Positions 38,611 to 56,474 of a stretch of DNA of 64,000 nucleotides are shown in pieces. The DNA is from Arsukibacterium sp. UBA5043 (GTDB lineage: Bacteria; Pseudomonadota; Gammaproteobacteria; Enterobacterales; Alteromonadaceae), in contig DIBV01000009.1 in assembly GCA_002415085.1 (NCBI GenBank), forward strand, positions 47,839 to 111,838, written 5' to 3'. Under the pieces are notes generated by a model, which was given only the letters and a program-made list of their open reading frames with translations, ran no database searches and was not told where the DNA came from. The stretch's first letter is position 1; every line of letters begins with the position of its first letter. The position numbers and the translations under genes were made by a program.

Positions 38611-38628
38611 AATTTGGCATGCCAAATT
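38611..38628. repeat. Island palindrome, copy 1
   Basis: Exact AATTTGGCATGCCAAATT. It lies 26 bp beyond the stop of the small gene at 38655-39032 and separates that gene from the alpA/repA unit. Confidence 0.9.
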
Positions 38629-38654
38629 ATTTCGTTATCAATTCAGGAAAATGT

Positions 38655-39032
38655 TCAGTGCTTAGTAGTGTTTACAATGCCTGTCTGGTTCCAGTCACAA
38701 AGCAGGAGCAGCCACCGGCTAATTGCTTGTAAGCGCTCGGGGCTATTGCCTTTGGCAGCAAAGGTCAGGTCTGTACTCCGTGCCGCAAACTGACTGAAGG
38801 TTTCAATCAGAATATCCCAACACTCTTCCCGCTCGTTGCTAACCTTGAAAGCAAAGGCTTTCTGGCTGAATAAATCGTGAAACAGTTGCTCTTCAGTCTC
38901 ATAAGATTCAGCCAGCTCAAAGCCAAGCGGTTCGCGGTACTTCTCGATGCCAGCAATGCGGTTTTGTAACTCGAAAATAGCCGGTATAAATGGCCGTAGC
39001 TCTGCTGTCTGATAAAGATTGTCAGTGTTCAT
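38655..39032 (-). CDS. Small acidic protein, paralogue of 48651-49037
   Basis: A protein of about 125 residues, MNTDNLYQTAELRPFIPAIF, with GGAGAG before the ATG at 39032. It shares the order LRPFIPA, then GIE, a Phe/Leu-rich acidic middle, and a C-terminal W-LL-LCDWNQ with the protein at 48651 (LRPFIPA, GIEEHF, WVISLCEWEQ). The two are therefore diverged copies of one family that I cannot name. This gene sits alone between palindrome copies 1 and 2, as a one-gene module. Confidence 0.6.
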   Translation of the reverse strand: MNTDNLYQTAELRPFIPAIFELQNRIAGIEKYREPLGFELAESYETEEQLFHDLFSQKAFAFKVSNEREECWDILIETFSQFAARSTDLTFAAKGNSPERLQAISRWLLLLCDWNQTGIVNTTKH

Positions 39033-39078
39033 GTACTCTCCAGGATGACCAATCGGCAAACCAAGTTCCTTAAAAAGG

Positions 39079-39096
39079 AATTTGGCATGCCAAATT
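39079..39096. repeat. Island palindrome, copy 2
   Basis: Exact AATTTGGCATGCCAAATT, preceded by GG. It lies 46 bp upstream of the start of the minus-strand small gene and 168 bp upstream of the GIY-YIG gene on the plus strand. Confidence 0.9.
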
Positions 39097-39264
39097 TTAT
39101 TCTAAATAGTTCTGACACTGCCGCAAGTATTTTCTGAACTGCACCCTATTGTATTTCTGCTGTTTATTGTTGCTTGAGTAAATTCTAATTGGTGATATGG
39201 TATTAAATGTTTGGCTTATAGGGCCAAAATTAACCTCTTTATATGGAAGTGAACCGGAGTGCTT

Positions 39265-40989
39265 ATGGACAAGTTGAGTGTTGTAATTGCCATTATCTTT
39301 TTTATTATCATAATTGAACTGATTAGACGGCTTACGGTTAACCGTGATTCTTATGAAAACAGTTTGAAGCAGAAAACTGAGGAATACACTGACCTTAAGT
39401 TAACTCATACTGCATTAACTCAAGACTTCGCGTCACTTCAATCGGTGAGGGACAAACTTACCAGCCAGGTTGCCGACTTAATCGCCGAGGTTAAGTCGTT
39501 ATCTCAGTTTACTGATGTTCGGGATACCACTTTAGAGCTTGAGCGTTTAAAGGCTGAAATCCTTGCCCGAGAAAACGAATGCCAGCAACAAATCACCGAT
39601 TTACTTCAGCGAGCCAACAATGAGGCTAGTTCGATAATTGGTACAGCACAGTTGGAAGCTGATGTGCTTCGGCGAGACACTAACGCTGATACTAAGTCGA
39701 AACGTGAACGATCGGCAGCCCTCTTGGCCGAGGCTAATGCACAAGCGGCAATTATAATCGCCAAGGCAGAAGCCAGCGCCGAACAAGTTGCTGGGGATGC
39801 TTACAGAGCCTTGCGGGAGGCTGATCGGTTAGAAAGCGTGATACAGGCATTAAAAAACGTCGTGAATGGCTATGGTGATGAGCATATGAAACCCACTTAT
39901 GGTTTGCTTGACGAGTTAGCTGAAATGTATGCGTTTGAGGATGCGGGTCGGGAGTTAAAGCTAGCAAGAGAACGGACAAAGTTGCTTGTGACCACCGAGC
40001 GTGCTGCCACTTGTGATTATGTTGAAAAAGGCCGGGCAAAAACGGCTATCAACTTTGTTATAGATGCGTTTAACGGCAAGGTTGACTCAATCTTATCGCG
40101 CTCCAAAACGGATAACTTCGGTAAGTTGGAAGCTGAAATACGCGATGCCGCTTCGCTTGTGAATCACAACGGTAAAGCTTTCAGAAGTGCCCGAATTACG
40201 GATGAATACCTGGCGGCCCGGATTGATGAGCTGCACTGGATTACAGCAGTCAATGTGGTGCGGGAAAACGAGCGGGAAGAGCAGCGCAGAATACGAGATC
40301 AGATTAGAGAAGAGCAGAAAGCTCGGCGTGAGTTTGAGCGCGCCATTAAAGATGCAGCCAAAGAAGAAGCCGCAATACAAAAGGCGGTTGATAAAATGCG
40401 TACTCAGCTTGAGAAGGCTACCGAAGAGCAGCGGGCTGAATACGAGCTAATGCTGAGTGAACTTCAGGGTAAACTGACTGAAGCTGAAGCGAGAAACCAA
40501 CGCGCATTATCAATGGCGCAGCAAACCAAAACTGGCCATGTTTACGTGATCTCTAATGTCGGCTCATTCGGTGAACACGTCTATAAAGTGGGCATGACAC
40601 GACGGCTTGAGCCACTTGATCGGGTTCGGGAACTCGGCGACGCCAGTGTCCCATTCCCGTTTGATGTCCATGCAATGATTTGGAGTGAAGATGCGCCGGC
40701 ATTGGAGCGAGATCTGCATCGATATTTCCTCCGGGCTCAGATGAATAAAATAAATCCCAGAAAAGAGTTTTTCAAAATCGGCATCGCTGATATCAGAACC
40801 CATGTTGAAGAACGCGGCCACAACTGCAGTTGGACAATGGCAGCAGACGCCGCTCAGTACCGGGAAACACTCGAAATAGAAAAGTTGATTGAAAGCGACC
40901 CGGCCGTAGCTGCTGAGTGGATGCGGCATCAGTTAGAGTTTGAACCTGATTTTTCTGATGCCGAAGAGGTTGAAGAAGAGTTGGAGTAA
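39265..40989 (+). CDS. Membrane-anchored coiled-coil protein with GIY-YIG (T5orf172/Mug113) nuclease domain
   Basis: A protein of about 574 residues. The N-terminus is a membrane anchor (LSVVIAIIFFIIIIELIRRL). It is followed by long coiled coils (about 30-190 and 330-420), a DUF4041-like central region, and a C-terminal GIY-YIG-type domain: GHVYVISNVGSFGEHVYKVG, then MTRRLEPLDRVRELGDAS and a helix ending NPRKEFFKI. Such DUF4041/T5orf172 proteins are common in phages and defence islands, with suspected DNA-cleaving roles. ATG at 39265 follows CCGGAG. It precedes the Gabija genes by 153 bp and may be separate from them. Confidence 0.72.
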   Translation: MDKLSVVIAIIFFIIIIELIRRLTVNRDSYENSLKQKTEEYTDLKLTHTALTQDFASLQSVRDKLTSQVADLIAEVKSLSQFTDVRDTTLELERLKAEILARENECQQQITDLLQRANNEASSIIGTAQLEADVLRRDTNADTKSKRERSAALLAEANAQAAIIIAKAEASAEQVAGDAYRALREADRLESVIQALKNVVNGYGDEHMKPTYGLLDELAEMYAFEDAGRELKLARERTKLLVTTERAATCDYVEKGRAKTAINFVIDAFNGKVDSILSRSKTDNFGKLEAEIRDAASLVNHNGKAFRSARITDEYLAARIDELHWITAVNVVRENEREEQRRIRDQIREEQKARREFERAIKDAAKEEAAIQKAVDKMRTQLEKATEEQRAEYELMLSELQGKLTEAEARNQRALSMAQQTKTGHVYVISNVGSFGEHVYKVGMTRRLEPLDRVRELGDASVPFPFDVHAMIWSEDAPALERDLHRYFLRAQMNKINPRKEFFKIGIADIRTHVEERGHNCSWTMAADAAQYRETLEIEKLIESDPAVAAEWMRHQLEFEPDFSDAEEVEEELE

Positions 40990-41142
40990 TTTAATTGAAT
41001 TGGACTAAGCTATTCAAAATGCAACTATTGCTGATCACGAACGTGATTCTGCATCTGTCCTATTTTTAAGGATTTCGCAATTGTTCCATTTATGGCTTGA
41101 TTTTACTAAATATTTTAACGGAACAAGGATCGTAAGGTACTG

Positions 41143-43284
41143 ATGCATATTTCAAAGTTAACTCTTATAAATTATCGAAATTTTTCGAACGCGGTACTGC
41201 GATTTAGTAAAGGCGTCAATACCATTATAGGTGAAAATGGTTCTGGAAAGTCGAATGTATTAAGAGCAATTAGGTTGATGCTTGATGACAATATGGTTCG
41301 AGCTTCATACAAACTTAATGAGTCGGACTTCTACCGGGGCCTCAGTTCCTGGCGCGGCCACTGGATCATTATCAGCGTCGAGTTTGAAGACATCAGTACA
41401 GATGAGGCGGTACAAGCGCTTTTTATTCACGGAACGGGGAACGTGCAGCATGATGGGGTGGTAGAGAAGGCTACGTACAACCTGATATTTCGGCCTAATA
41501 AACAGGTCCGAATGAACTTGGCCGCACTTGCGGATTTTGACTTTGATGGAATGAACGCAATTCTAGAGCGAGTAACAATTGACGATTATGAAACCCTATT
41601 CACGGGAAGAAGTGATGCAGATTTCTCAAATCCTGCATTTTATCGCCGTATAGTAGGTGACTTTGCCAATGCTCAATTTTCTAGTGAAGTCGAATTTCCG
41701 GAATTAGGTGCTCGTATCCCAGGTTTATTGTCGGTGACAAAGGAAGTTTCATTCACTTTTATTCAAGCTCTGCGAGACGTAATTTCCGAGTTCCACAATA
41801 ACCGGACCAACCCACTTTTAACCCTGCTAAAGAGCAAGAGTGGCCAGATTGATTCTGTCCAGTTTCAACCAATTGTTGAGCGTGCACAGCAATTAAACAC
41901 AGAAATTGAGCAGCTGAAGGATGTGCAAACTGTTCGAACTGATATCATGGATACAATTCATGGAGCAGCGGGCCAGACCTACTCTCCGTCTCTACTAGCA
42001 ATCAAATCTGCTCTCCCAGACGAAGCCGATTTACTGTTTCAGTCGCTTAAACTTTTTGTTGGAGAGTTTGACTCAAGCCATGAGGGGGGCATTCAGGAAC
42101 TTAGCCTTGGTGGTGCAAATCTCATTTTTTTGACGCTGAAGCTTTTAGAGTTCAAATATCAACACGAGCGTAAAGCACTTGCGAATTTTCTTCTAATCGA
42201 GGAGCCGGAAGCGCATCTACATACACACGTCCAGAAAACACTATTCGATCGAATCGGATACGCTGGAGCACAGATAATATACTCGACACACTCAACGCAT
42301 ATCTCAGAAGTAAGTAACATCGAGAGAGTCAACATCTTGGGGCGCAACGGGACGGTTTGTGACGCATTTCAGCCATCTGCTGGTCTTACCCCCGACCAGG
42401 TAGGGAATGTTCAGCGTTACCTTGACGCAGTCCGTAGTAACCTTCTATTTGCAAAGAGTGTGTTGCTAGTTGAAGGCGATGCTGAAGAAATTCTTATTCC
42501 GGTGATGGTGAAGAAGGTACTGGGAGTTAGCCTAGATGAACTCGGAATCAGCCTGATAAATATCGGTAGTACCGGCTTCGCTAATGTTTCAGTGCTGTTC
42601 CACGAATTAAGAGTCCGTCGGCGATGTGCAATCATCACAGATTTGGACGCTGCATTTATGAACACTTTCCCTCTACCTGGTGACGACCCTGATACGTCGA
42701 AATTAAAAAATAAACTTTTAAGATCCCAAGTGGTTGGTGCTGCTAGAAAATTAAAACTTGATGAACAAACAGCCGGTAACGCATGGCTGGACGCCTTCTA
42801 TGCTACTAATACTTTCGAAGTTGACTTCGTTGCATGTGGCAATGCAGACAAAGTAGTCGCTTCAGTTAATGATGTTTATACTCAACCCGCAACGCGCGCT
42901 CAATCCATAATTGAGTTAAGTTCGGCTGATCCAACTCAGTTTGGAAAACGTGTGCTAGCCATGGCTAACTATGAAGGCAAAGGTTGGTTCGCTATTCTTT
43001 TGGGTAAACGGATAGATCATCGAACCGTTATTCCGCCGTATATCAGGCAAGCAATCATCTTCGCACACGGCACATTCTCAAAAGATTTGATCTTCAACAT
43101 TCTAAAGTACAGAGTATCAATGAATAATCCGGGCGGCGACGCCACACCGCCAGCGCTTCAACGCTATTGGGAACGCCTTCTTGAATATCGAAAAGGCCTA
43201 GTTGATTTTAATACTATAAGGAGAGAGTCAGCTGCCGGTCTTCACGGCGACCAAATCCTTGCATTTTTGGATGATCTGCCTTGA
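41143..43284 (+). CDS. gajA: OLD-family ATPase-nuclease (Gabija GajA-like)
   Basis: A 713-residue class 2 OLD protein. An ABC-type ATPase is split across the sequence, with Walker A in NTIIGENGSGKSNVLRAIRL (about residue 30), a signature region (ELSLGGANLIFLTLKLLEF) and Walker B in LLIEEPEAHLHTH. A C-terminal TOPRIM domain has its glutamate in VLLVEGDAEEILIP and an acidic pair in AIITDLDAAF. In Gabija, GajA nicks DNA when nucleotide levels fall during phage infection. It is longer than GajA of Bacillus (about 580). The next gene overlaps it by 4 bp and encodes a UvrD-like helicase, the defining Gabija arrangement. Confidence 0.82.
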   Translation: MHISKLTLINYRNFSNAVLRFSKGVNTIIGENGSGKSNVLRAIRLMLDDNMVRASYKLNESDFYRGLSSWRGHWIIISVEFEDISTDEAVQALFIHGTGNVQHDGVVEKATYNLIFRPNKQVRMNLAALADFDFDGMNAILERVTIDDYETLFTGRSDADFSNPAFYRRIVGDFANAQFSSEVEFPELGARIPGLLSVTKEVSFTFIQALRDVISEFHNNRTNPLLTLLKSKSGQIDSVQFQPIVERAQQLNTEIEQLKDVQTVRTDIMDTIHGAAGQTYSPSLLAIKSALPDEADLLFQSLKLFVGEFDSSHEGGIQELSLGGANLIFLTLKLLEFKYQHERKALANFLLIEEPEAHLHTHVQKTLFDRIGYAGAQIIYSTHSTHISEVSNIERVNILGRNGTVCDAFQPSAGLTPDQVGNVQRYLDAVRSNLLFAKSVLLVEGDAEEILIPVMVKKVLGVSLDELGISLINIGSTGFANVSVLFHELRVRRRCAIITDLDAAFMNTFPLPGDDPDTSKLKNKLLRSQVVGAARKLKLDEQTAGNAWLDAFYATNTFEVDFVACGNADKVVASVNDVYTQPATRAQSIIELSSADPTQFGKRVLAMANYEGKGWFAILLGKRIDHRTVIPPYIRQAIIFAHGTFSKDLIFNILKYRVSMNNPGGDATPPALQRYWERLLEYRKGLVDFNTIRRESAAGLHGDQILAFLDDLP

Positions 43285-45083
43285 AGTTTGTCTGGACTTC
43301 GACCGAGTTGAACAACGAACAGTCGGAAGCTGTTCGCGAAGATGGCAGCGTTTTTTTAGTGGCTTGCCCTGGCAGCGGGAAGACCAGAACATTAACCTAC
43401 AAGATCGCCTATGAACTTTCACGCCTGCAGAATGAGCGGCAATATATCATTGCTTTAACATATACAAACCGAGCGGCTGATGAAATTCATGAACGTATCG
43501 GGGGACTTGGTGTTGACACTTCACAGCTTTGGATAGGAACGATTCACTCTTTCTGTTTAGAATGGATACTTAAGCCATACGGCATTTATGAGCCTGCATT
43601 AGCATCTGGTTTTCGGGTTATGGACAGCCATGAGCAAGAAAAGCTGTTTGAAGAGCTTTGTCGAACTCAGCGAGGAATCACCTATTGGGATTGTGAATAC
43701 TACTACACCGAACAAGGATACGTGTTGGCTTGCAGGGATCCCACCAAACACGAGCGTCTTCACGAAATTTTTACTTTATATTTCAATCGCCTAGAGGATA
43801 GTAGGCAAATTGATTTTGAGCAAATACTTTTTTATGCCACGCGTTTGATTATAAATCAACCTCAGATCGCTAGAGTTTTGGCTAACATCTTTCCTTGGAT
43901 GCTGATTGATGAATATCAGGATACGAAAAGGATTCAATATACAATCGTTACAACGATAGTTAGGGCCGGCGCTGAGCAAACCAAACTATTTGTAGTCGGC
44001 GATCCTAATCAGGCAATTTTTGCCTCACTTGGTGGTTTCGCCATGCCGTTCGAAGAACTTCGACAGCTCTGCGGCGTGCATTTGTCAGAGCGTGCACTAA
44101 TAGAAAATTATCGATCCACTGACCGCCTAATCAGATATTTTTCGAATTTCACTGTTCAGCCGACAGGCATTCGCGGAGCGTCCTCAGACAGGACCTTCCA
44201 AAGCAGCATTAGCTATAACACCAATTTGGTGAGGGACCAACTAGAAGCAGAACTTGTGAGGCTGATAAGGCTAAGCACAGCCCAAGGATTTGCAGCGGAA
44301 AAAATTTGTGTACTGGCACCATGGTGGATACTGTTAGCGGGTATAACACGTCGACTTGCGAGCGCTTTGCCAGAGTATGAGTTTGACGGCCCAGGCATGG
44401 TTCCTTTTAGTCGTGATCAAGAAAATTTTTGGTATCGGTTGTCGCGAATCGCGCTGACTGAGGCATCTCCTGAACAATATGTAAGGCGGACGCGCTGGGC
44501 GGCTGAGGTAATAAGAGATTTAACCAATCAAGGGATTAATACTCGGGATCTTTCCGCTAAGCGTCTACTTCAGGTGAGCAATATGATCAAATTGAATCAA
44601 CCTGATGGACTGCAGTACCTTCGGGAGTTTTTCACGTCATTGATGGAGAATCTCGGAATCGAATGGCAATTACACGCTTTGCTTTGCGAACATCATCATG
44701 CTTTCTTTGATAGTTCGGCTGCGAAGATTGCGCGACTGCGCAAGGAAGGGGCTGAATACATCGGTGGCGTAGAGTTTTTCCGCAAAGTTTTCCGACCTGG
44801 ATGTGGTATCACCGTTAACACCGTTCATGGAGTGAAGGGATCAGAGTTTGATGTTGTAATAGCCTTTGGCCTGTTGCAAGGAATGATTCCACATTTTAGT
44901 GAAGAAGCAGAGGTTGATGGAGGTATCAACAGTGCTAAAAAGTTGCTGTACGTTATAAGTTCTCGAGCACGTAAACATCTTTATCTAATTTCTGAGCAAC
45001 AACGCATGCAGGGGGGCAGGCGAGGTCCCTACTCGCCAACTAATACACTTGCAGAGTGTGTTTTTGATTATGACATTGTATAG
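43281..45083 (+). CDS. gajB: UvrD/PcrA-like helicase (Gabija GajB-like)
   Basis: A 600-residue SF1 helicase with motif I (LVACPGSGKTRTLTYKIA), motif Ia (ALTYTNRAADEI), motif II (MLIDEYQDTKRIQY) and motif III (VVGDPNQAIFASLGG). Motif IV region (IENYRSTDRLIRYF), motif V (TVNTVHGVKGSEFDVVIAFG) and motif VI (LLYVISSRARKHLYL) follow. The TTG start overlaps the gajA stop as TTGA, implying translational coupling. In Gabija, GajB senses DNA ends and stimulates GajA. Length is somewhat above the roughly 500 residues of the Bacillus protein. Confidence 0.82.
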   Translation: MKFVWTSTELNNEQSEAVREDGSVFLVACPGSGKTRTLTYKIAYELSRLQNERQYIIALTYTNRAADEIHERIGGLGVDTSQLWIGTIHSFCLEWILKPYGIYEPALASGFRVMDSHEQEKLFEELCRTQRGITYWDCEYYYTEQGYVLACRDPTKHERLHEIFTLYFNRLEDSRQIDFEQILFYATRLIINQPQIARVLANIFPWMLIDEYQDTKRIQYTIVTTIVRAGAEQTKLFVVGDPNQAIFASLGGFAMPFEELRQLCGVHLSERALIENYRSTDRLIRYFSNFTVQPTGIRGASSDRTFQSSISYNTNLVRDQLEAELVRLIRLSTAQGFAAEKICVLAPWWILLAGITRRLASALPEYEFDGPGMVPFSRDQENFWYRLSRIALTEASPEQYVRRTRWAAEVIRDLTNQGINTRDLSAKRLLQVSNMIKLNQPDGLQYLREFFTSLMENLGIEWQLHALLCEHHHAFFDSSAAKIARLRKEGAEYIGGVEFFRKVFRPGCGITVNTVHGVKGSEFDVVIAFGLLQGMIPHFSEEAEVDGGINSAKKLLYVISSRARKHLYLISEQQRMQGGRRGPYSPTNTLAECVFDYDIV

Positions 45084-45119
45084 CCACACCGTGTAATTTT
45101 TCCAGAGGTTAAAATAATA

Positions 45120-46850
45120 ATGAGTATTCAATATATTATCGATCAATTGCAGCATTATGTTGATAATAAAAAACCTGGGGTTTTTGCGGTTGTTGGCGAT
45201 TGGGGGGTCGGTAAAACCTATCTTTGGACAACCTTTGTCCAAACTAGATTAATAAAAGCGAGGCCAAAGTATTCCTATGTCTCTTTGTTTGGCATCGATA
45301 GTGTGTCAAACATCGAAAAGGAAATATTCTTAAATCACGTCCCCATTGACAAAGCTGCCAACCCAGCTGATTACAATACCGTCCTTACGTCAATCAAGAA
45401 AACAGGTAAGAAAATTCAAAACTCCGGCCCAACAGGTTTATTCAAGTTTGTTGGATGGGTGAGAGAATGGCTAGGTGGTATCCCGCTAATTTCACAGTAT
45501 ATTTCTGGATTTGATATCCCACTTTATAAGTTAATGCCATACGAAGATACACTAATCTGTTTTGACGATATAGAACGTCTCTCTAATGCACTCAGCTTGG
45601 ATGAAATATTGGGGCTAATAGAAAGGTTGAAGACTACAAAAAAAGCTCAAATTGTTTTATTGCTTAACAGCAACAAAATACAAAGCGATATTTATAAACG
45701 TTATAAAGAAAAAGTTGTTGATTATGAGCTTGTCCTTAAGCCGACAGCTGCTGAAGCATTCGAAGTTGCTTTTCATGACTTAAAACACGAATTAGCATAC
45801 GACACTCTTAGTGAAGTATGTTGCAACCTGAATATATGTAATATCAGAATATTATTGAAGTTGAAAAGTTCTGTTGAGCAGATATTACCAATTCTTCAAG
45901 GTAAACATCCAGATACTTTTTCAAATGTTCTGAATCCATTGGTGTTAATACAATTATCTGACGCTTGCAGCGCGTCTCAGCCGGACACTGTGCCGACTTT
46001 AAATTATATTAAGTCACACACTCTCTACGGATTATTTGATGAGAAACTTACACAGCAGGAAAAAATATGGAATAAAACTTTACTGGATGCCGGATTCGAC
46101 GAACCAGGACCAATATTTGACGCTCTGGTGGATGGTATTACATCAGGTATTCACGACAAAAGTAAATTGGTAAAGCATATTGATCAGTTAGAAGCTCAAG
46201 CGCAGTTCAATCGACGTGAAACAAGCTATCGCTCAGCACTCATTGAGCTGAATTCTGGTTTTTCTAATTGTGATGCAAAAGAGAGGGTGAGAAATCTTTA
46301 CCTGTCTGCGAAAGAACATCTTCCTTGCATACATATAAAAGAATTCAATGATATATGCTATTTGATGAGTTTATTCGATGAGTTTGGGAACGAAATCAGT
46401 CTATTTGTCACTCAGTATCTGAGTAAGATCAACTCCGAAACCTTAGCCTCTATCAAGTCAACTTCCGGGCTGCATCCTGCTATAAGTTCGAGTATCGAGA
46501 GTTTTGTTCCACAAGAGCAACCCGAGATAACAGTTAAACAAGCACTTTACGCTTTAGCTATCAATCGTATTGATACGAAGTATTTAGAAATAGCACCACA
46601 AGCATCGGAAGAAGACTACTATGAACTGCTTATGCGGAAACCCGATGCTAACAACCTTAATCTTGATGATGCAATTCCATATCTACTGAGGTTCGGTGTT
46701 ATGCATGACGCATCAGATCAAGGGCATGATTTGATCTATCAAGATATTTATAACAAGACATGTCGTGCTCTTCGTCGCCATGGATCTGAGTCACCCTTAA
46801 ATCAATTTCTTGTTGAGAAACATCTGGGGCAGATAGATATAATTGAATAG
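45120..46850 (+). CDS. KAP-type P-loop NTPase
   Basis: A 576-residue protein with Walker A GDWGVGKTYLW (about residue 26) and a KAP/STAND-like Walker B in TLICFDDIERLSNALSLDE, then a sensor-like LLLNSNKI. The remaining 350 residues are helical and match nothing I know. No membrane helix, unlike many KAP proteins. It begins 37 bp after gajB in the same direction, so it is probably the third gene of the operon and may extend the Gabija system; alternatively it is an independent one-gene defence or an addition within the same palindrome-bounded module. Confidence 0.65.
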   Translation: MSIQYIIDQLQHYVDNKKPGVFAVVGDWGVGKTYLWTTFVQTRLIKARPKYSYVSLFGIDSVSNIEKEIFLNHVPIDKAANPADYNTVLTSIKKTGKKIQNSGPTGLFKFVGWVREWLGGIPLISQYISGFDIPLYKLMPYEDTLICFDDIERLSNALSLDEILGLIERLKTTKKAQIVLLLNSNKIQSDIYKRYKEKVVDYELVLKPTAAEAFEVAFHDLKHELAYDTLSEVCCNLNICNIRILLKLKSSVEQILPILQGKHPDTFSNVLNPLVLIQLSDACSASQPDTVPTLNYIKSHTLYGLFDEKLTQQEKIWNKTLLDAGFDEPGPIFDALVDGITSGIHDKSKLVKHIDQLEAQAQFNRRETSYRSALIELNSGFSNCDAKERVRNLYLSAKEHLPCIHIKEFNDICYLMSLFDEFGNEISLFVTQYLSKINSETLASIKSTSGLHPAISSSIESFVPQEQPEITVKQALYALAINRIDTKYLEIAPQASEEDYYELLMRKPDANNLNLDDAIPYLLRFGVMHDASDQGHDLIYQDIYNKTCRALRRHGSESPLNQFLVEKHLGQIDIIE

Positions 46851-46908: not shown

Positions 46909-46938
46909 GATAGGAATTTGGCATGCCAAATTCCTATC
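46909..46938. repeat. Island palindrome, copy 3, extended to 30 bp
   Basis: The 18-bp core AATTTGGCATGCCAAATT (46915-46932) is extended perfectly by GATAGG on the left and CCTATC on the right, giving a 30-bp perfect palindrome. It overlaps the stop codon of the tyrosine recombinase (46934-46936, minus strand) and lies 58 bp after the NTPase stop. Only this copy has the long extension. Confidence 0.95.
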
Positions 46939-47815
46939 GTAAGTACGTCTCAGTAATCTCTGGCCTGAAATGCCCCATTTCCTGTGAAACGGTTTCCAGC
47001 GCTACAGTTCTTACAAGACCCTGCATTTGCAGTTCATACATCCGCTGCTGGGCATAGCTATGACGTAAACCATGAGCGCCGCGTGACCAGCCTAAAGCTC
47101 GCTTAGATGCCGCACTGAATGAATTCGACCAACGCTGGCCGCCGGCAACGTTATACCTGCTTAGGTAGTTAATCTCCCGGTCGCGCACAGTAATAGGCTG
47201 TGATCTGCGGTGTAACTCCAACTCTTCAGCTAGTTTGGTCGGCAAGAGTACCTGGCGGATCAGGCCACCTTTACCTTGCACCGTATATAAAACACCATCA
47301 CGTCCGGCCCATTTGTATTCGTTGGCTGGGCGCTTATCTGCCGACCGTTCATTACAACGGGCCAGTGTTAGCAGTTCGTGTGCACGTAAACCAGCAGCAT
47401 AGCTAAGCTGAGTAGCCAGTGAATTCGACGTAAATTGTTTGCCTGCAACTATCTCTACTTGCCGCTCAGAGTAAGCGCGGGACTTTAAGACTTGTTGCTG
47501 TTCAGATCTAATAACCGGTAGGCGAGAATTTTCTGGTAAAGCCTTACTAACATGATGGAGCATTATTTGCAGCGCTTGGCGTTCCAGATCCAGCATTTTC
47601 TGCCCAACAATCTGGCCGCGTAGCTCCAGGTAGGTAATCGCATCGTCTATCGACATTCCCCTTAAGCTGGGTAGCTTCATCTGTTGGCAGTAGTCGGCAA
47701 CAGTGGTTAACGCCTGCTCATAGTTACGCACTGAGCCGACTGATTTAATAATATCGCCTTGCAGCTGTTTCATCACAGCTGCAGCTTGTTTGGCAGGCTT
47801 GGCGAATTTAGCCAT
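46934..47815 (-). CDS. Tyrosine recombinase, Integrase_1-like
   Basis: A 293-residue recombinase. The SAM-like N-terminal domain has VRNYEQALTTVADYC and GQKMLDLERQALQIML. The catalytic domain carries Arg in YAAGLRAHELLTLARC, Lys in VQGKGGLIRQVLL, HGLRHSYAQ, and the late His and Tyr in QEMGHFRPEITETYLR, so the active site is complete. The domains recall the Phage_int_SAM_2/Integrase_1 families. The nucleophilic Tyr is three residues from the end and the stop codon lies inside the 30-bp palindrome. It overlaps the small HTH gene by 8 bp. It is the prime candidate enzyme for movement of the palindrome-bounded modules, but this is not shown. Confidence 0.85.
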   Translation of the reverse strand: MAKFAKPAKQAAAVMKQLQGDIIKSVGSVRNYEQALTTVADYCQQMKLPSLRGMSIDDAITYLELRGQIVGQKMLDLERQALQIMLHHVSKALPENSRLPVIRSEQQQVLKSRAYSERQVEIVAGKQFTSNSLATQLSYAAGLRAHELLTLARCNERSADKRPANEYKWAGRDGVLYTVQGKGGLIRQVLLPTKLAEELELHRRSQPITVRDREINYLSRYNVAGGQRWSNSFSAASKRALGWSRGAHGLRHSYAQQRMYELQMQGLVRTVALETVSQEMGHFRPEITETYLR

Positions 47816-48032
47816 GGTTATCTAACCAGCGTTTAACGGTAGTCCAGGCTACCGAGATGCGTTTTACTTTAAGCCAGCGCTGCAATTCGGCAACAGTTGC
47901 GCCTTTAATACGCATTTTTACCAGTTCGCCATGATAAAAATTTAGCCTTGAGTTTTTAAACCGCTTTTGCCGGAGTTCTCGGGTTTCAGCTTTTAACTTG
48001 GCCAGTTCAGTTTCAACATCAAATTTAGTCAT
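47808..48032 (-). CDS. Small HTH accessory protein of the recombinase
   Basis: A 74-residue basic protein: a charged helix (ELAKLKAETRELRQKRFKNS) followed by an HTH of the resolvase-like or 'GAT..ELQRWLK' type (MRIKGATVAELQRWLKVKRI, then VAWTTVKRWLD). Small HTH proteins overlapping Integrase_1 genes are, from memory, a recurrent pair and may act as recombination directionality or DNA-bending factors. It is the first gene of the pair and reads away from the 58-codon frame at 48214. Confidence 0.6.
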   Translation of the reverse strand: MTKFDVETELAKLKAETRELRQKRFKNSRLNFYHGELVKMRIKGATVAELQRWLKVKRISVAWTTVKRWLDNHG

Positions 48033-48482: not shown

Positions 48483-48500
48483 AATTTGGCATGCCAAATT
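48483..48500. repeat. Island palindrome, copy 4
   Basis: Exact AATTTGGCATGCCAAATT preceded by GG, 63 bp after the right arm of the long hairpin. Confidence 0.9.
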
Positions 48501-48606: not shown

Positions 48607-48624
48607 AATTTGGCATGCCAAATT
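48607..48624. repeat. Island palindrome, copy 5
   Basis: Exact AATTTGGCATGCCAAATT, extended by one base pair (G...C) to 20 bp. It lies 26 bp upstream of the small gene at 48651. Confidence 0.9.
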
Positions 48625-48650
48625 CTTCAACAGCAATTAGGAAACCTATT

Positions 48651-49037
48651 ATGAAAGAACTATACGAATCAATGATGCTAAATTCAAAACTACGACCTTT
48701 TATTCCGGCTGTAAAAGTTCTTGCAGCCCACATGGTCGGCATTGAAGAGCATTTCCCTGACTTTGCGCTGCAGCTTGAGTTGGTGGAAACTGAAGACGAA
48801 ATGTGGTTTCAGATCATGCAACAGCCGTTTTTAGACTTTGCCTTCCTGGATGAGCACGACAACGCCTGGTGCCCCAGCAGCGAGACGTTTAAAGCTTTCG
48901 CCGAAAAGCATGGGCCTTTAAAGCTGGGCCTGGACATTTACCCTTTGGAGAAGCGAATGAATTTCTACCGCTGGGTGATATCACTTTGTGAGTGGGAACA
49001 GGTAGAGCATCAGTCGTTTAGTTTTTTAGATGATTAG
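48651..49037 (+). CDS. Small acidic protein, paralogue of 38655-39032
   Basis: A 128-residue acidic protein starting MKELYESMMLNSKLRPFIPA, with TAGGAAA upstream. An upstream ATG at 48615 lies inside the palindrome and is rejected. It has the same layout as the protein at 38655: LRPFIPA near residue 14, an aromatic/acidic centre and a C-terminal YRWVISLCEWEQ. It follows palindrome copy 5 directly. No known family; the recurrence next to palindromes at two places is the main clue. Confidence 0.6.
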   Translation: MKELYESMMLNSKLRPFIPAVKVLAAHMVGIEEHFPDFALQLELVETEDEMWFQIMQQPFLDFAFLDEHDNAWCPSSETFKAFAEKHGPLKLGLDIYPLEKRMNFYRWVISLCEWEQVEHQSFSFLDD

Positions 49038-49111
49038 TTTCCAACGGTCTGCGTAGTACACAATAACGGCAGGGTATCTGTTATTAAAATAACGGTAATT
49101 AGGCTTTCAGC

Positions 49112-49489: not shown

Positions 49490-49503
49490 GCTCGATTTAC
49501 CCG

Positions 49504-52497: not shown

Positions 52498-52622
52498 GGC
52501 TGGAGAAAAAGAGTATGGCCCGGCGGAGTAAAACCAGCTTTATTGAGCATCAAATTTAGGTCTCTGGCATGATTCATTGATAAACTTTTATAAACTATTT
52601 TTTTTGAAAAATAGGAGAGCGT

Positions 52623-53129
52623 ATGACTAAAGAGCAGTTCGCACTAAATTTTCTAAATAGCCTGCTTTCGACCATAATTGGCGGCGGTTTCCTCACCTTT
52701 CTCTTCTTTTGGTTGAGAGAAAAAGTATTCCCTTTACCAGACATCACAGGTCGCTGGTATTTTGAGATGCTTACAGAGAACAGCGCTTATAACCCTTATA
52801 AAGGAATGGTTTTAAGATATGTAGCGATGCTTTGGCGCGAAGGCGGTCGTATTGAGGGCACGGTCGAAAAGTTTTACGAAGATTCTTCTACAGGAAAAAG
52901 GCCTTTTGTGGGTAAAGATCGTACGAGAGGCCGAGTTGAAGGGTACATTCAAAAAAACTACTTCACTAGAGATCGAATTGTTTTACATGTTGTAGAGGAC
53001 GGCCATGGCCGTGAATCAACGAATTTTTACGATCTTATATTTGAACCTGACGGGACTATGAAGGGGCGTTTCAGTTCTATGGTTGCTGAACAAGATGGCA
53101 GCGTACAGTGGCAAAAGGAAATGTTTTGA
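52623..53129 (+). CDS. Single-TM beta-rich membrane protein (Cap15/S-2TMbeta-like, tentative)
   Basis: A 168-residue protein with one N-terminal membrane segment (LLSTIIGGGFLTFLFFWLRE). A beta-rich domain beginning DITGRWYFEMLTENSAYNPY and ending TMKGRFSSMVAE follows. The GRW start and alternating-strand pattern recall small membrane-anchored beta-barrels such as CBASS Cap15, but only one TM helix is evident and no nucleotide cyclase gene is nearby. GGAGAG precedes the ATG. The stop overlaps the start of the transglycosylase gene (TTGA), so the two are a coupled pair. Confidence 0.55.
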   Translation: MTKEQFALNFLNSLLSTIIGGGFLTFLFFWLREKVFPLPDITGRWYFEMLTENSAYNPYKGMVLRYVAMLWREGGRIEGTVEKFYEDSSTGKRPFVGKDRTRGRVEGYIQKNYFTRDRIVLHVVEDGHGRESTNFYDLIFEPDGTMKGRFSSMVAEQDGSVQWQKEMF

Positions 53130-53785
53130 AATTTTTGCTTTGGTTATTGTCAACGCCTCAAATTGCATTTTCATTACTTGCGGAATTTATTTCAACTAAG
53201 AGTTTTAGTTCTGATCTTCAAAGGTGTGTTGATATTTCACGTCAGTATGGTGAAAGTGTGCCCTCTTACTTTGTTGAAGCATTAATAATCGCTGAAGATC
53301 ATCGAAGTACCAAACACCCAGGTATTGATCCCATTGCGATATTCCGAGCGATATGGGTAAGGTTTTACAGGGGGGAAATTCAGGGCGCAAGTACAATTGA
53401 ACAGCAGTTTGTAAGGGTTGTAACCAACAGATACGAGAAAACAATTGCCCGTAAAATCCGTGAACAAATACTCGCATTGATGATTGTTAGGCGAATTAAC
53501 AAGCGCGAAATAGCATCAGCATATCTATCCATTGCTTTTTATGGCTCAAGCTCAATAGGTAAAAGTGGATTAGTGGCTAAATTTGGTGAGGATCTGTCAA
53601 TTGTTCCCTTCGAACATGCTCTCCGGATGGTTGCACAATTGAAATATCCTCAACCGTTGATTCCTAGTTCTGCGTGGCATGACAAATTGGAATCACGATG
53701 TATGTTGTTGCTGAGTCGGGTAGCATTAAATGACAAAAAAACTTCATATGCTAGTGAGGTAGCGGAAGATGTTCGTAAAGGATAA
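53126..53785 (+). CDS. Stand-alone GT51 peptidoglycan glycosyltransferase
   Basis: A protein of about 219 residues starting at TTG 53126 (LKFLLWLLSTPQIAFSLL, a membrane anchor), with AAAAGGAA upstream; a GTG at 53108 lacks a site. The GT51 motifs are complete: ALIIAEDHRSTKHPGIDPIA (catalytic Glu), QGASTIEQQFVR, ARKIREQILALMIVRRI and an ASAYLSIAFYG segment. It resembles MtgA, which polymerises lipid II, but lies in a defence island and is coupled to a membrane beta-rich protein. It could disturb the cell wall when activated; this is inference. Confidence 0.78.
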   Translation: MKFLLWLLSTPQIAFSLLAEFISTKSFSSDLQRCVDISRQYGESVPSYFVEALIIAEDHRSTKHPGIDPIAIFRAIWVRFYRGEIQGASTIEQQFVRVVTNRYEKTIARKIREQILALMIVRRINKREIASAYLSIAFYGSSSIGKSGLVAKFGEDLSIVPFEHALRMVAQLKYPQPLIPSSAWHDKLESRCMLLLSRVALNDKKTSYASEVAEDVRKG

Positions 53786-54563
53786 TCACGAAACCCACTA
53801 ATACGGATTTAATACTTGCTGGAACTAGTAATTCGTAATTCCTTGTCAAAGAATATGTTTATCCATTTAAATTTCACCATAGAGTAGTTGCCAAAACACC
53901 TATTGCGACGAGTTGCTCCTATATTGAACATTTATTGATCCATTTGCGGTATTCAACCTGAAAACCTGACTGTTTAATCGTTAATAAATACACGCCTCAA
54001 AGCTTGAATAGTTAAACACAGTCCCCACTTATCAGTTAACCGTTCCTACTTGCGGTTTAACAGTTGGTTTCGGTAGTCCCCATATCGTAGAGATTAGATA
54101 TGGCGATACCTAAACGTAAGAATGTTAATAAAAAAGGTAAATTATTCAGGGTTAAGAAACGACTGAATAGTCAGCGGATGAAGCTGAGAAGAGCTCAACC
54201 TGCCTCTTCGAACAAGTCCTGCTGGTTATGCAGGGTAATATGGCAATTTTTGCCAATATTACTGAAGCTGTGGCGACACTTCGACGTTATAGTGAATATT
54301 GTTTCTAGTTTTTAAGTGCTTGGCAGGCATGATAAAACCACTGTTTGAAGGAGGTGTGTAGCGCATAAGTTTATTAGGAAAACTCAATGTACTTTATGAG
54401 AATTTTAAAAAAGAGGGCAAAAAATGCCTAAGTCTATACTGTTTGATCGAGTTATTTTCGCTTAAACCAATGTTAATTAGGGGAGTGCCAATCCCCTGAA
54501 TGAAGCCGGACTCACTGAAGTAGCAGTGTTTCCAGAATAAAGTAGGATAAAAATCTAAAGCAA
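53786..54563. other. AT-rich, gene-poor stretch
   Basis: A 778-bp stretch holding only one doubtful small frame (54100-54315) and shorter ones. I see no RNA gene, terminator or repeat of note. Confidence 0.4.
54100..54315 (+). CDS. Doubtful small basic protein
   Basis: A 71-codon frame with a strongly basic start (MAIPKRKNVNKKGKLFRVKK) and a hydrophobic C-terminus (WLCRVIWQFLPILLKL). Initiation support is weak (AGAG). It may be a real small membrane-active peptide or chance. Confidence 0.2.
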   Translation: MAIPKRKNVNKKGKLFRVKKRLNSQRMKLRRAQPASSNKSCWLCRVIWQFLPILLKLWRHFDVIVNIVSSF

Positions 54564-54995
54564 ATGAGCCAGCGACTTTATGTAACTAAACGCGATGGAA
54601 GACGGGAGCCTTTGGATCTCGATAAAATTCATCGTGTCATAACATGGGCTGCTGAAGGACTGAGAGATGTTTCTGTATCTCAAGTTCCAATCTCAATATT
54701 TTACGAAGATTTCAATGAAGACATTGAATTCATTAACGATGAAAGAAACATTGACATAGCAGCTCTGGTTAAAAGAGTTGAGGCATTACTTTTTAAACGT
54801 TTAATGCTACCTGTACCGATATGTAATTTCATTGTCTGGGTTTTAATGCCTCACACTGGTTTGATTTTCCGTAAATTAAACACACACACTCGCACTCGTC
54901 AGCGAGTTTGTTGGAAGCCTTTAGATACCAGAGAACTACTAAGAGTTACGAGTAAGTTTGCGAGAGCCCCTCCCGAAAACCACTCTTATTTGTAA
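54564..54995 (+). CDS. Chimeric protein with NrdA-like ATP-cone start
   Basis: The first 41 residues (MSQRLYVTKRDGRREPLDLD, then KIHRVITWAAEGLRDVSVSQV) match the opening of class Ia ribonucleotide reductase large subunit NrdA. The similarity then stops and 100 unrelated residues follow, including a hydrophobic patch (FIVWVLMPHTGLIF). It is therefore either a captured 5' end of nrdA fused to other coding sequence or a decayed copy. The stop (54993-54995) lies 5 bp before palindrome copy 6. Confidence 0.45.
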   Translation: MSQRLYVTKRDGRREPLDLDKIHRVITWAAEGLRDVSVSQVPISIFYEDFNEDIEFINDERNIDIAALVKRVEALLFKRLMLPVPICNFIVWVLMPHTGLIFRKLNTHTRTRQRVCWKPLDTRELLRVTSKFARAPPENHSYL

Positions 54996-55000
54996 AGTGA

Positions 55001-55018
55001 AATTTGGCATGCCAAATT
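55001..55018. repeat. Island palindrome, copy 6
   Basis: Exact AATTTGGCATGCCAAATT, 5 bp after the stop of the plus-strand NrdA-chimera and 15 bp from the stop of the minus-strand 68-residue gene; two convergent genes end at it. Confidence 0.9.
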
Positions 55019-55033
55019 CCTATTACAGGAAAT

Positions 55034-55240
55034 TTAGTAAAAGGTATCGTAGAGCTGACCCAAATCTTGAGCATCTCCCGCCTCTGACCGGCTCATATGT
55101 TCGCCATCAGCAATAACATTACCCATACCGTCATCCAGCATGTCCAGCTGATCACTGTCGCTGTCATCTGACCCAGATAAAAGAACATCTAATGTTCCAA
55201 GCGCTACTAAGCCTGTTACTTTTAATACTTTACCTAACAT
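55034..55240 (-). CDS. Small acidic protein with N-terminal hydrophobic helix
   Basis: A 68-residue protein: a hydrophobic helix (VLKVTGLVALGTLDVLLSG) then an acidic tail (SDDSDSDQLDMLDDGMGNVI). It sits alone between palindrome copies 6 and 7, starting 19 bp from copy 7 and ending 15 bp from copy 6. AAGG precedes the ATG. With so little space upstream, its promoter must overlap or lie beyond the palindrome. Function unknown. Confidence 0.5.
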   Translation of the reverse strand: MLGKVLKVTGLVALGTLDVLLSGSDDSDSDQLDMLDDGMGNVIADGEHMSRSEAGDAQDLGQLYDTFY

Positions 55241-55259
55241 AGTTTGTACCTTATATGGG

Positions 55260-55277
55260 AATTTGGCATGCCAAATT
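55260..55277. repeat. Island palindrome, copy 7
   Basis: Exact AATTTGGCATGCCAAATT preceded by GG, 1 bp from the stop codon of the minus-strand lipoprotein gene. Confidence 0.9.
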
Positions 55278-55278
55278 G

Positions 55279-56073
55279 TTAATTAATAAACTGGCCTTTG
55301 GTCGGCGTTATTATCGAGCTGCAATCGCCGGCAGTGTTTTCAAGTAGCACCGTATCTGGGTTAAGAACCAGCTGATTGCCCTGGCTTGCTACGTCACTAA
55401 ACGATGCGTAATAGCGGATACGCCTTTTACTGCTGCCGGTTCCACTTAGTGCTAAGGCCAATTCAGGTTCGATCTCAATTCGGCCTGTGCGTGTTTTGGT
55501 GATTCTTTTCAGGTAAGCCTCTGCATGCTCAGCTGGCACGGCCACGTTGTCGAAGCGGTCGGTTTGAACTGAGTAAATATGCGCGCCTTGGCCATCCAGC
55601 GTTATTTCAAACTGATTGAAGAAGGTGAGAGGGAAAGACTGCGTATTGAAGTCATACTCGCCCAGCTCTGCCTGCCCGCTCACGTAGTAGGTGTCTTTGT
55701 ACTGCTTCTCGCTGTAATAAGTTTCAAACGCCTGCTGCCGCCTTGCTTGCTCAAACTCATTAAACTTCTCAGTTTTACTTTGAACAAATTTCTCCAAAGA
55801 AATAACTGGCTTGCTGCCCTCCAAGTGATAACCCACATAAGCAGCATCGTGAAATTCAGCGTTTTGCTTTAACAGTTTTAGCTGGGCAGTGCCATTACAG
55901 ATTGCTAAAGCTTGTGCGCTAGCGCTGACTACTGCATTGCTCTCGTTAGAATTCAGCTTGTTCAGACCGTTTGTCGATAGCTGGTTCTTGTCACCTTTGC
56001 CGTTAGTTACGGTAACGCAGCCACTACAAGCAAGGGCTACAGCACAGGTTAGAGCTATTACTGAAATTTTCAT
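55279..56073 (-). CDS. Putative lipoprotein of unknown function
   Basis: A 264-residue protein with a lipoprotein signal (VIALTCAVALACSGC, lipidated Cys at residue 19). The mature part is mixed helix and strand (YHLEGSKPVISLEKFVQSKT; RITKTRTGRIEIEPELALAL) and matches no family I know. It is divergent from the XRE regulator gene, and the 116-bp gap between them holds two operator-like palindromes. Its stop abuts palindrome copy 7. Confidence 0.6.
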   Translation of the reverse strand: MKISVIALTCAVALACSGCVTVTNGKGDKNQLSTNGLNKLNSNESNAVVSASAQALAICNGTAQLKLLKQNAEFHDAAYVGYHLEGSKPVISLEKFVQSKTEKFNEFEQARRQQAFETYYSEKQYKDTYYVSGQAELGEYDFNTQSFPLTFFNQFEITLDGQGAHIYSVQTDRFDNVAVPAEHAEAYLKRITKTRTGRIEIEPELALALSGTGSSKRRIRYYASFSDVASQGNQLVLNPDTVLLENTAGDCSSIITPTKGQFIN

Positions 56074-56115
56074 ATTCTCACTTCTTTAATATTCGCCAGC
56101 CTGAAACTCAGGGTG

Positions 56116-56164
56116 CTAAGTATTCCTTAGTATCTAGCTGCTATTAAAGCTAAGAAAATCTTAG
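56116..56164. promoter_or_regulatory. Paired operator CTAAG-N5-CTTAG between lipoprotein and XRE genes
   Basis: Two copies of CTAAG-N5-CTTAG (56116-56130 and 56150-56164), 34 bp apart centre to centre (about three helical turns). They lie in the divergent promoter region and are the natural binding site for the adjacent XRE protein. Confidence 0.65.
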
Positions 56165-56189
56165 TTTTCAATAGCCAATATCTCACACT

Positions 56190-56456
56190 GTGAATAATAC
56201 TGACGGTTCGCCCTTACCAAAGCGCCTGAAACAAGCCCGCCTTCTGCGTGGCTTGTCGCAAAAGCAGCTCGGCATACTTGCCGGGATGGACCGTTTTGTC
56301 GCGTCTGCGCGAATGAACCAGTACGAGCGGGGAGTGCATGCGCCGGAATTTAAAACCGTTATAGCGCTGGCTAAGGTTTTGCAGGTGCCTACGGCCTACT
56401 TGTTTTGCATAGAAGATGATCTGGCAGAATTGATACTGGCAAAGAGTGACAGTTGA
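56190..56456 (+). CDS. XRE-family HTH regulator
   Basis: An 88-residue protein consisting mainly of one HTH_3 domain (about 8-70: LPKRLKQARLLRGLSQKQLG, then an ARMNQYERGVHAPEFKTVI segment). The start is GTG at 56190. It probably regulates itself and the divergent lipoprotein gene through the CTAAG-N5-CTTAG pair. Its stop codon ends at the very base before palindrome copy 8. Confidence 0.82.
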   Translation: MNNTDGSPLPKRLKQARLLRGLSQKQLGILAGMDRFVASARMNQYERGVHAPEFKTVIALAKVLQVPTAYLFCIEDDLAELILAKSDS

Positions 56457-56474
56457 AATTTGGCATGCCAAATT
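56457..56474. repeat. Island palindrome, copy 8
   Basis: Exact AATTTGGCATGCCAAATT beginning on the base after the XRE stop codon and 31 bp before the stop of the convergent 177-residue gene. This is the last copy seen in the window. Confidence 0.9.

Follow-up and report, generated by a model that had tools for sequence, protein, structure and literature searches.

It is still being asked how islands acquire their defence genes one module at a time and, besides integrons and insertion at hotspots, we know of few precise routes. The island in the window (the whole 64,000-nucleotide stretch of DNA analysed here) poses this question in a concrete form, with one 18-bp palindrome, P, repeated among its genes. 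A preliminary description had listed eight copies, and all of them are exact and located at the positions it gave. P1 (38611..38628) stands between F2 and the HTH_17/Rep side; P2 (39079..39096) is upstream of both F2 and a GIY-YIG-type gene, a junction type that recurs in another island (L079:10930); P3 (46915..46932) separates the stop codon of a KAP-type gene, 64 nt away, from that of a recombinase gene; P4 occupies 48483..48500; P5 (48607..48624) overlaps the first possible start of a second F2-like gene; P6 (55001..55018) lies between the stops of a 143-aa ATP-cone ORF and F0; P7 (55260..55277) is 19 nt upstream of the F0 start and just past a lipoprotein gene; and P8 (56457..56474) abuts the stop of an XRE gene. 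The short distances claimed between stop codons and P were also confirmed, namely 0 nt for XRE, 1 nt for the recombinase and the lipoprotein, 5 nt for the ATP-cone ORF, 15 nt for the 68-aa gene (F0) and 26 nt for the 134-aa gene (F2). The chromosomal half was said to be free of P, and the window indeed holds no further copy at up to three mismatches; shuffled windows contain 0.13 copies on average and none of 100 reached eight. In the whole genome of 3,877,447 bases the exact copies are these same eight, with three-mismatch matches at four other places, so that P is not scattered and does not behave as a REP-like chromosomal repeat.

The island has its own P4-type integrase (34425..35747, + strand; PF00589 8.7e-14, PF13356 7e-13), of a family found in 13 of 30 loci as far as they were read, and an RPA-type replication initiator (37657..38445, − strand; phrog_23447 5.6e-16; family F12). 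ARAGORN found no whole tRNA in the window; we take the stretch left of the integrase to resemble the 3' part of tRNA-Ile, which makes a tRNA-Ile site plausible, and shared 14-mers revealed no att repeats around the visible part of the island, the window ending at the contig end. The defence cargo comprises Gabija, which had been named before and which PADLOC recognises as GajA (1.6e-301) and GajB (3.1e-245) at 41143..45083 (+), flanked by a GIY-YIG/PD-Lambda-1-like gene (39259..40989, +; PADLOC PD-Lambda-1 1.2e-113) and a KAP-type ATPase-like gene (45120..46850, +; PADLOC candidate PDC-S49 3.1e-26), the names GIY-YIG and KAP being those of the preliminary description. A lipoprotein-like cargo gene, F11 (55279..56073, −), has relatives in three other islands (L065, L068, and L073). 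Three further genes belong to a shared core: F1 (56190..56456, +), an XRE/HTH_3 regulator (PF01381 1.1e-9) present in 23 of the 30 mapped loci and in 21 of the 28 that bear P; F0 (55034..55240, −), a conserved protein of 68 aa; and F2 (38655..39059, −), a protein of about 125-135 aa with no recognised fold. A known DNA-binding fold was considered for F2. A search with its structure model (mean pLDDT 84.6) gave no solved structure at E≤0.001, and its profile found nothing better than E 0.027 among PDB sequences. A diverged second F2-like gene (48615..49037, +) aligns with it at 27% identity.

The use of P, or of a symmetric variant, at module boundaries extends to a whole family of integrative elements of plasmid- or satellite-like type, mostly from marine bacteria of several genera. 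A search of 395 family genomes for the pattern AATTNGGCATGCCNAATT gave 82 copies in 25 of them, compared with 0/395 for the reversed control; of 394 genomes sampled from the order, 3 contain it. The element core consists of a tyrosine recombinase, XRE, F0, F2, an AlpA-like HTH gene and a Rep or DUF927 primase gene, with a P4-type integrase in many; recombinase, XRE, F0, F2, and Rep/primase follow in this order, and additional copies of P enclose cargo, among it the lipoprotein and Gabija. Wherever two core genes are immediately adjacent, P separates F0 from F2 in 10/10 loci, Rec4 (a recombinase of other islands) from XRE in 4/4, F2 from the Rep/primase side in 9/10, and XRE from F0 in 14/19, or 14/17 of the P-bearing ones (13 found by script; in the fourteenth, L076, P is overlapped by the called F0 start). 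Sequence comparison thus places P at most core junctions. Two loci, L133 and L134, have the same genes without P. L084 and L108 are not part of the locus map; L108 has a single lone AATTCGGCATGCCGAATT. F0 occurs in 22 of the 395 genomes and in 22 of the 28 P-bearing loci; all 19 genomes with a strong F0 carry P, and F0 is missing from 6 of the 25 P-bearing family genomes. No F0 was found in plasmids at E≤1e-3, and no relative of F0 or Rec9 was confirmed in viral contigs. Three single matches to the 18-mer were seen in viral contigs.

The comparison of related islands that had been suggested shows islands with and without given modules, the differences lying precisely between copies of P. Of 85 homology breakpoints, 37 fall within 10 nt of P, when about 4.4 would be expected, and one is present at 33 of the 84 P sites and at 4 of the 167 gene ends elsewhere; these figures come from 21 of the 24 loci with at least two sites (L067, L082, and L104, near-copies of L074, were omitted), ignore the relatedness of the islands and use a narrower window for the gene-end control than for P. 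At base level, L071 has a single P at XRE/F0 where L068 has P-lipoprotein-P, with flanks identical at 38/40 and 34/40 positions up to P, and a single P at Rec4/XRE where L073 has P-F43-P-F18-P, with flanks of 36/40 and 40/40. The L065 case matches at 39/40 on the left and at 17/40 ungapped on the right, where a 1-nt shift is visible, and two of the five cases resolved in this way match on one side only. Flank clusters also change partners across P (8 partner clusters for the XRE end, 4 for the F0 start, and 3 for the XRE start, some of them related to each other). Furthermore, at three orthologous junctions P is 0.93-0.94 identical compared with 0.34-0.50 for the ungapped flanks. As P is confined to the array in the genome studied here, often coincides with breakpoints and is kept while its flanks diverge, it is very probably a real exchange boundary of the modules in these islands.

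The module-exchange system proposed in the preliminary description therefore stands as far as the boundary is concerned, but its second part, insertion of modules both ways round through a symmetric site, is not supported for shared modules. Among 25 oriented loci the shared modules point in one direction, with XRE in 24/24, F0 in 24/24 and F2 in 13/14, the exception being the diverged second copy in the window. Cargo families are also found in a single orientation each: F11 (4), F18 (3), F43 (2), F44 (2), and F45 (2). Two exceptions are the recombinase module of the window, which faces the opposite way to the one in nine other loci, and the GIY-type gene, which is reversed in L107, where it is not between copies of P. 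Shared core modules that never flip are odd for an active symmetric site, and the fact that P is so strictly conserved at old core junctions points to some lasting role in addition to rare exchange.

Which enzyme could act at P? The best, though unproven, candidate is the small tyrosine recombinase of the element; in seven islands the end of its gene is 0-1 nt away from P. Rec4 or Rec9 is present in 20 of the 28 P-bearing loci. The window encodes Rec9 (46934..47815, −; 293 aa), which matches phrog_216 integrase at 1.2e-9 and PF00589 only at 0.0066, below the Pfam cut-off. Its residues R144, K182, H248, R251, H282, and Y291, which we take to be catalytic, are invariant in the eight aligned proteins, catalytic-type residues being intact in the aligned members, and the best PDB match of its structure model is the integron integrase 2a3v (E 2.2e-8); a search of PDB sequences with its profile gave no match at E≤0.01. 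A 74-aa partner, r8 (47808..48032, −), adjoins Rec9 in all 11 Rec9 loci mapped. The gap between stop codon and P is 0-1 nt in 6 of 11 Rec4 loci (L066, L075, L081, L101, L102, and L103), 30-32 nt in four and 425 nt in one (L068). In the nine P-bearing Rec9 loci it is 1 nt in the window and 15 nt in L106, the other seven having no P downstream, and four Rec9 elements of this last kind end about at the Rec9 stop. P is not a universal own site of either family: no such palindrome was found beside the Rec9 relatives on any of the six plasmid records read, nor in 14 of the 15 loci of Rec4 relatives read, out of 16 found (L096 was omitted). In related Alteromonas elements homology ends at or just before the Rec9 stop codon, and a sharp crossover at its varied last codons was considered; since the differences are spread over the whole gene (72-110 of 820 bases), this reading was dropped.

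In the mechanism that we favour, each module would travel whole, together with one P; a module that is free or comes from a donor would recombine with a resident P to give P-module-P, and recombination between two copies of P would remove the intervening DNA. The reaction may be site-specific and carried out by Rec4 or Rec9/r8, of which we are less sure. As a whole explanation, exchange at P through a site-specific reaction of the element's own small tyrosine recombinase has in our estimate a probability of roughly 0.5-0.55. A central crossover between sites of the T-A and A-T types at positions 5/14 should make hybrid sites; of the 86 distinct sites, 68 are T-A, 18 A-T, and none mixed, though 11 loci hold both types. 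This lack of hybrids fits P as a linker rather than the site of an enzyme, with homologous or annealing exchange of modules, or their loss by slippage between 18-bp repeats, and with P kept for some other reason. The fixed order and orientation of the core modules and the 8 of 28 loci with neither Rec4 nor Rec9 in the stretch read fit a linker as well, and the idea of short boundary sequences in phages is already in print (PMC3029335). However, unrelated cargo has P at each end, which requires a step that duplicates P, and the conservation of P itself is left unexplained. In addition, 18 bp is short for RecA, which also counts against a linker, and we consider this reading possible but doubtful.

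That very strong conservation, with strict symmetry at positions 5/14, could instead point to a multi-copy operator or architectural site for a protein of the element, comparable to KorB operators, ParB sites, or stoperators and under selection at every gene boundary, where breakpoints would fall only because P is intergenic. F0 and P mostly co-occur, and P contains TTGGCA and provides the first hexamer in 3 of the 27 promoter-like matches of the array, which are no more numerous than in shuffles (31.9). Nevertheless, in L066 and L075 P is placed between convergent stop codons with gaps of 0-1 nt on both sides, where a promoter is unexpected, L133 and L134 do without it, and breakpoints are rare at gene ends away from P, all of which makes this role unlikely. 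In particular, P is unlikely to be mainly the XRE operator, because a separate pair of CTAAG-N5-CTTAG sites, exactly 34 bp apart in 21 of 23 XRE loci (56116..56164 in the window), likely serves that regulator; the pair is also present in the P-less L134, and L076 and L133 have one exact site each. The position of P at gene ends, with some sites A-rich on the left and T-rich on the right, would also suit a bidirectional terminator or insulator; a terminator or a repetitive element had been the main alternative of the preliminary description. Neither was supported, the 18-mer not being scattered and the stem having 7 pairs with 2 G-C (−4.2 kcal/mol), unlike the G-C-rich stem and T-run 3' of genes of an intrinsic terminator. 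T-runs (5 of 7) are no more frequent after genes (9/51) than before them (6/44), none of the 16 terminator-like matches in the array overlaps P, one ending 8 nt from P1, and P also occurs between the XRE operator region and the F0 start, so we regard termination as very improbable. Finally, a serine recombinase acting on an extended dyad of about 26 bp with a central AT would account for symmetry beyond the 18-mer (on average 1.70 extra pairs compared with 0.69 in shuffles) and for the resolvase gene about 0.2 kb from copies of P in one genome (G770) and about 1.6 kb in another (G701). Yet PF00239 is unmatched in 9 of 20 P-bearing genomes, the one studied here included, and we rejected it as the general agent and find it scarcely credible.

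Among known systems, PAISt of Streptomyces turgidiscabies is a precedent for palindromic att repeats with modular excision by a tyrosine recombinase: copies of an 8-bp palindrome (TTCATGAA) split the island into modules that excise separately, and the gene of the recombinase, IntSt, is beside the palindrome (PMC4057263). In that island there are three copies, the site lies in repeats of the end of a host gene, the modules measure 105 and 569 kb, and activity has been demonstrated (PMC4057263). In contrast, P stands at most gene junctions of its elements, with up to 8 copies per element and modules mostly of 0.1-8 kb, in several genera. Like P, the start-associated sequences and stoperators of mycobacteriophages are short, nearly identical repeats found where genes of a mobile element meet, and the start-associated ones are also rare in the host genome; these phage repeats are 13 bp, asymmetric and placed at starts or in one direction (PMC3203893, PMC3029335). 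P is symmetric, stands at both module ends and coincides with exchange. The KorB operators of IncP-1 plasmids are also several identical palindromes across one element; to our knowledge, they are regulatory sites and not cargo boundaries. By their genes (integrase, AlpA-like HTH, primase/Rep, repressor-like XRE, and defence cargo), the P islands are like P4-like/PICI satellites and integrative plasmids, and Pfam and PHROGs recovered the set of integrase, AlpA-like HTH and primase/Rep, but repeated palindromes at the borders of modules are not known to us from those elements.

Integrons share with the P islands small gene modules bounded by recombination-type sites, arrays that differ by whole units ending at the site, and a tyrosine recombinase in the element, the best PDB match of the Rec9 model being an integron integrase. 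They differ in that P is a perfect 18-bp palindrome and not an attC site, that the P islands have a fixed core order with modules pointing both ways, and that Rec9 scores 16.6 bits against integrase_gron (TIGR02249; cut-off 265) and is not an IntI-type integrase. attC sites carry RYYYAAC/GTTRRRY boxes, none of which is found in the 18-mer. We tentatively propose, at slightly under even odds, that these are integron-like but unrelated cassettes with a single P each, which a plasmid-type tyrosine recombinase could capture, delete, and swap among islands of different genera, rebuilding defence and accessory cargo one module after another around a fixed core. The literature searched contained no description of such a P-bounded module system. 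Mobile islands of this family gain, lose, and swap modules, including virus-defence genes, at marks that may offer genetic tools a recombination site both small and symmetric. As the boundary is an exact and searchable 18-bp tag, sequence is enough to list the cargo, exchange events can be ordered, and the enzyme can be tested. In L079, the GIY-YIG/PD-Lambda-1-like gene sits alone between two copies of P.

All eight exact copies of the 18-bp palindrome AATTTGGCATGCCAAATT (hereafter P) which the preliminary description had placed between 38611 and 56474 of the window were recovered, with no further copy at up to three mismatches there, and the gaps it had reported between reading frames and P copies held on re-measuring, as did the 143-aa ORF at 54564-54995, with an ATP-cone as its only domain, whose stop lies 5 nt short of a palindrome. 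Shuffled versions of the window contained a mean of 0.13 copies and none of 100 reached eight. In the whole genome (3,877,447 bases in 18 contigs) exact AATTTGGCATGCCAAATT occurs nowhere besides these eight, and 3-mismatch matches were found at four more places. Because the contig stops where the window stops, the island's right end is out of view; left of the integrase, within 34043-34425, lies a sequence resembling the 3' part of a tRNA-Ile, the likely attachment site.

The exact 18-mer was found in 32 stretches of the genome_contigs collection (described as holding 84,980 species genomes). According to their titles, 23 of these, from 18 genomes, belong to Rheinheimera, Alishewanella, Alkalimonas, Alteromonas, Pseudoalteromonas, Neptunicella, Catenovulum, Thalassotalea and Vibrio, and arrays of 2 to 5 copies inside 8 kb are frequent among them. 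The remaining nine stretches are lone copies in unrelated genomes, which can be due to chance, and viral contigs gave three matches, each single. The pattern AATTNGGCATGCCNAATT was present in 25 of 395 genomes of the family (82 copies, summed from the table; 0 with the reversed control) and in 3 of 394 genomes of the order. A strong match to F0, the 68-aa core protein of the window, was found in 19 of those 25 family genomes and not in the other six, and a distant F0 in three more family genomes, of which one has a lone variant palindrome.

We fetched 31 regions from related genomes and mapped 29 of them together with the window (30 loci, of which 28 carry P). The recurring core consists of a tyrosine recombinase (either Rec4, matching PF12834 and PF12835, or Rec9, the small enzyme encoded at 46934..47815 on the minus strand of the window, with its small 74-aa partner r8), the XRE regulator F1 (23 loci), F0 (66-90 aa; 24 loci), F2 (~125-135 aa; 13 loci) and replication genes, F2 being followed by a DUF927 primase and an AlpA-like HTH or else by an HTH_17 protein and a Rep protein; a P4-type integrase is present in 13 loci. 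Among the P-bearing loci, Rec4 occurs in 11 and Rec9 in nine (the L067 copy is split), and neither was found within the stretch read of L069, L072, L076, L077, L078, L079, L083 and L132. The minimal island (L071, L075, L101) reads recombinase, XRE, F0, F2 and primase, with P at every junction. Rec9 was found in 5 of the 18 genomes from the exact scan, in four (one a weak match) of 147 genomes close to the host's and in none of the phages searched, and plasmid relatives, often on small plasmids, were on 161 (Rec9) and 203 (Rec4) of 72,556 records. On several Xenorhabdus, Vibrio and Klebsiella plasmids (e.g. NZ_FO818639, NZ_CP104556, NZ_CP058747) r8-Rec9 is followed by a ~200-aa third gene, often overlapping; in the window Rec9 has no such gene after it, and a palindrome lies 1 nt past its stop.

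Between direct neighbours P stands in 10/10 loci for F0-F2, 4/4 for Rec4-XRE, 9/10 for F2 and the Rep/primase side and 14/19 for XRE-F0 (13 by script plus L076, whose called F0 start overlaps P). The XRE-F0 junctions without P are those of L070, L107 and L132, plus the P-less element relatives L133 and L134, in which the order recombinase, XRE, F0 is unchanged. Neither P nor a visible decayed copy was found at r8-XRE in Rec9 islands or at XRE-lipoprotein in L073 and the window. Cargo stands between extra P copies: a lipoprotein module in L065 and L068, F43 and F18 modules in L073 and L080, a multi-gene block in L073 and the window, and Gabija with its neighbours in the window. When XRE-P-F0 of L071 is compared with P-lipoprotein-P of L068, the bases adjoining P are identical at 38/40 and 34/40, and Rec4-P-XRE of L071 against L073, with two added modules, gives 36/40 and 40/40; in a third pair, L065, the left flank matches at 39/40 and the right at 17/40 ungapped, with a one-base shift visible. 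Two further comparisons agree on a single side: L073 gave 10/40 and 35/40 when set against the window, and L102 gave 33/40 and 11/40 against L101, for which the XRE start and not the XRE end had been picked. Flank clusters change partners across P: XRE ends have 8 partner clusters, F0 starts 4, Rec4 ends 4 and 3, XRE starts 3 and F2 starts 3, counts that include related clusters such as two Rec4-end and two lipoprotein-end ones. In 21 of the 24 loci having at least two sites (three near-copies were left out), 37 of 85 homology breakpoints fell within 10 nt of P, against ~4.4 expected by summing position by position. A breakpoint was found at 33/84 P copies and at 4/167 gene ends more than 40 nt away from P, an imperfect control in that the counting span was 38 nt for P and 21 nt for a gene end, some of these gene ends lie in relative-less cargo and the islands are not independent. 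In L079 (8993-10947) the window's GIY-YIG-type gene stands alone between a decayed and a perfect palindrome and adjoins a putative F2 remnant; L106 of genome G770 has a 6.3 kb stretch bounded by P, with many small ORFs, and two palindromes (14570-15200) ~0.2 kb off a resolvase-family gene.

The site set comprised 97 sites, 86 of them distinct: the 18-mer accounts for 56, the symmetric variant AATTAGGCATGCCTAATT for 16, and the remaining 14 are one or two bases off one of the two. Positions 5/14 are T/A in 68 and A/T in 18, and a mixed pair there was found in none of the 86, though both types co-occur in 11 loci; the outermost pair is mixed in six sites and doubly changed in one. Mean identity at three orthologous junctions (with 10, 4 and 9 sites) is 0.93-0.94 for P and 0.34-0.50 for the 30+30-nt flanks, an ungapped value which indels depress, and in the 74 perfect sites symmetry continues past the 18 bp for a mean of 1.70 pairs, compared to 0.69 with shuffled flanks (2000 shuffles, maximum 1.15). 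P is thus selected or homogenised as a symmetric unit. Some palindromes (L065:8318, L065:10552 and L068:4395) are longer by up to ~13 base pairs owing to an inverted copy, on the opposite side, of the end of one neighbour gene, as quasi-palindrome template switching would give.

A module carrying one P would most likely recombine into a resident P, giving P-module-P, and recombination between two copies would most likely delete it. The element's tyrosine recombinase is the best candidate enzyme for this exchange, since its presumed catalytic residues are intact in all aligned proteins (8 Rec9 and 6 Rec4), structural matches of the Rec9 model (mean pLDDT 87.3) are to tyrosine recombinases (top, integron integrase 2a3v, E 2.2e-8, TM-scores near 0.4) and the distance from the end of the gene to P is 0-1 nt for six of the 11 Rec4 loci and for Rec9 in the window. 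In L068 a putative decayed P lies at the stop codon of Rec4. Exchange through homology between P copies is a serious rival, because hybrid sites are absent, core modules are never flipped, both recombinases have relatives without P and in 7 of the 9 P-bearing Rec9 loci P is absent past the Rec9 stop.

Other readings of P are less well supported. As a terminator, P would form a weak hairpin (-4.2 kcal/mol), T-runs are equally rare 3' (9/51) and 5' (6/44) of genes, and overlap with terminator-like hits in the array is zero. An XRE operator role is disfavoured by a separate operator-like pair ahead of that gene: two exact copies of CTAAG-N5-CTTAG, spaced exactly 34 bp, are present in 21 of 23 XRE loci (window 56116-56164; also L065, L066, L071-L075, L081, L101 and others, including P-less L134); L073 has a second pair ahead of F2 (11897, 11931; one site with a mismatch) and L080 a near pair 35 bp apart. 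As for a serine recombinase acting at P, 9 of the 20 P-bearing genomes searched, the window's own included, gave no match to one.

This system is described in no title or abstract retrieved from the literature searched (with most subscription papers and preprints outside), and neither the 18-mer nor its A-type variant (A/T at positions 5/14) occurs in the searched paper texts. The nearest precedent is PAISt, an island which excises as modules through three palindromic 8-bp att copies (PMC4057263), resembling P in dividing an island into modules; a different report concerns Vibrio elements that circularise one strand (PMC9345347). We regard the P system as akin to PAISt and midway towards integrons, but as a member of neither.

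The L074, L082 and L104 elements are near-identical (95.5-96.5% across 11-12 kb) and L067 modules are 98.7-99.3% alike, in hosts that are different Alteromonas species or genus mates, and homology stops at, or shortly ahead of, the Rec9 stop codon. Finally, a conserved stretch in which no ORF was called, perhaps serving as an origin or encoding a small RNA, lies directly before the last Rep-side palindrome (L067:11747-12052, L074:9141-9446, L082:9821-10126 and L075 ~10503-10720).
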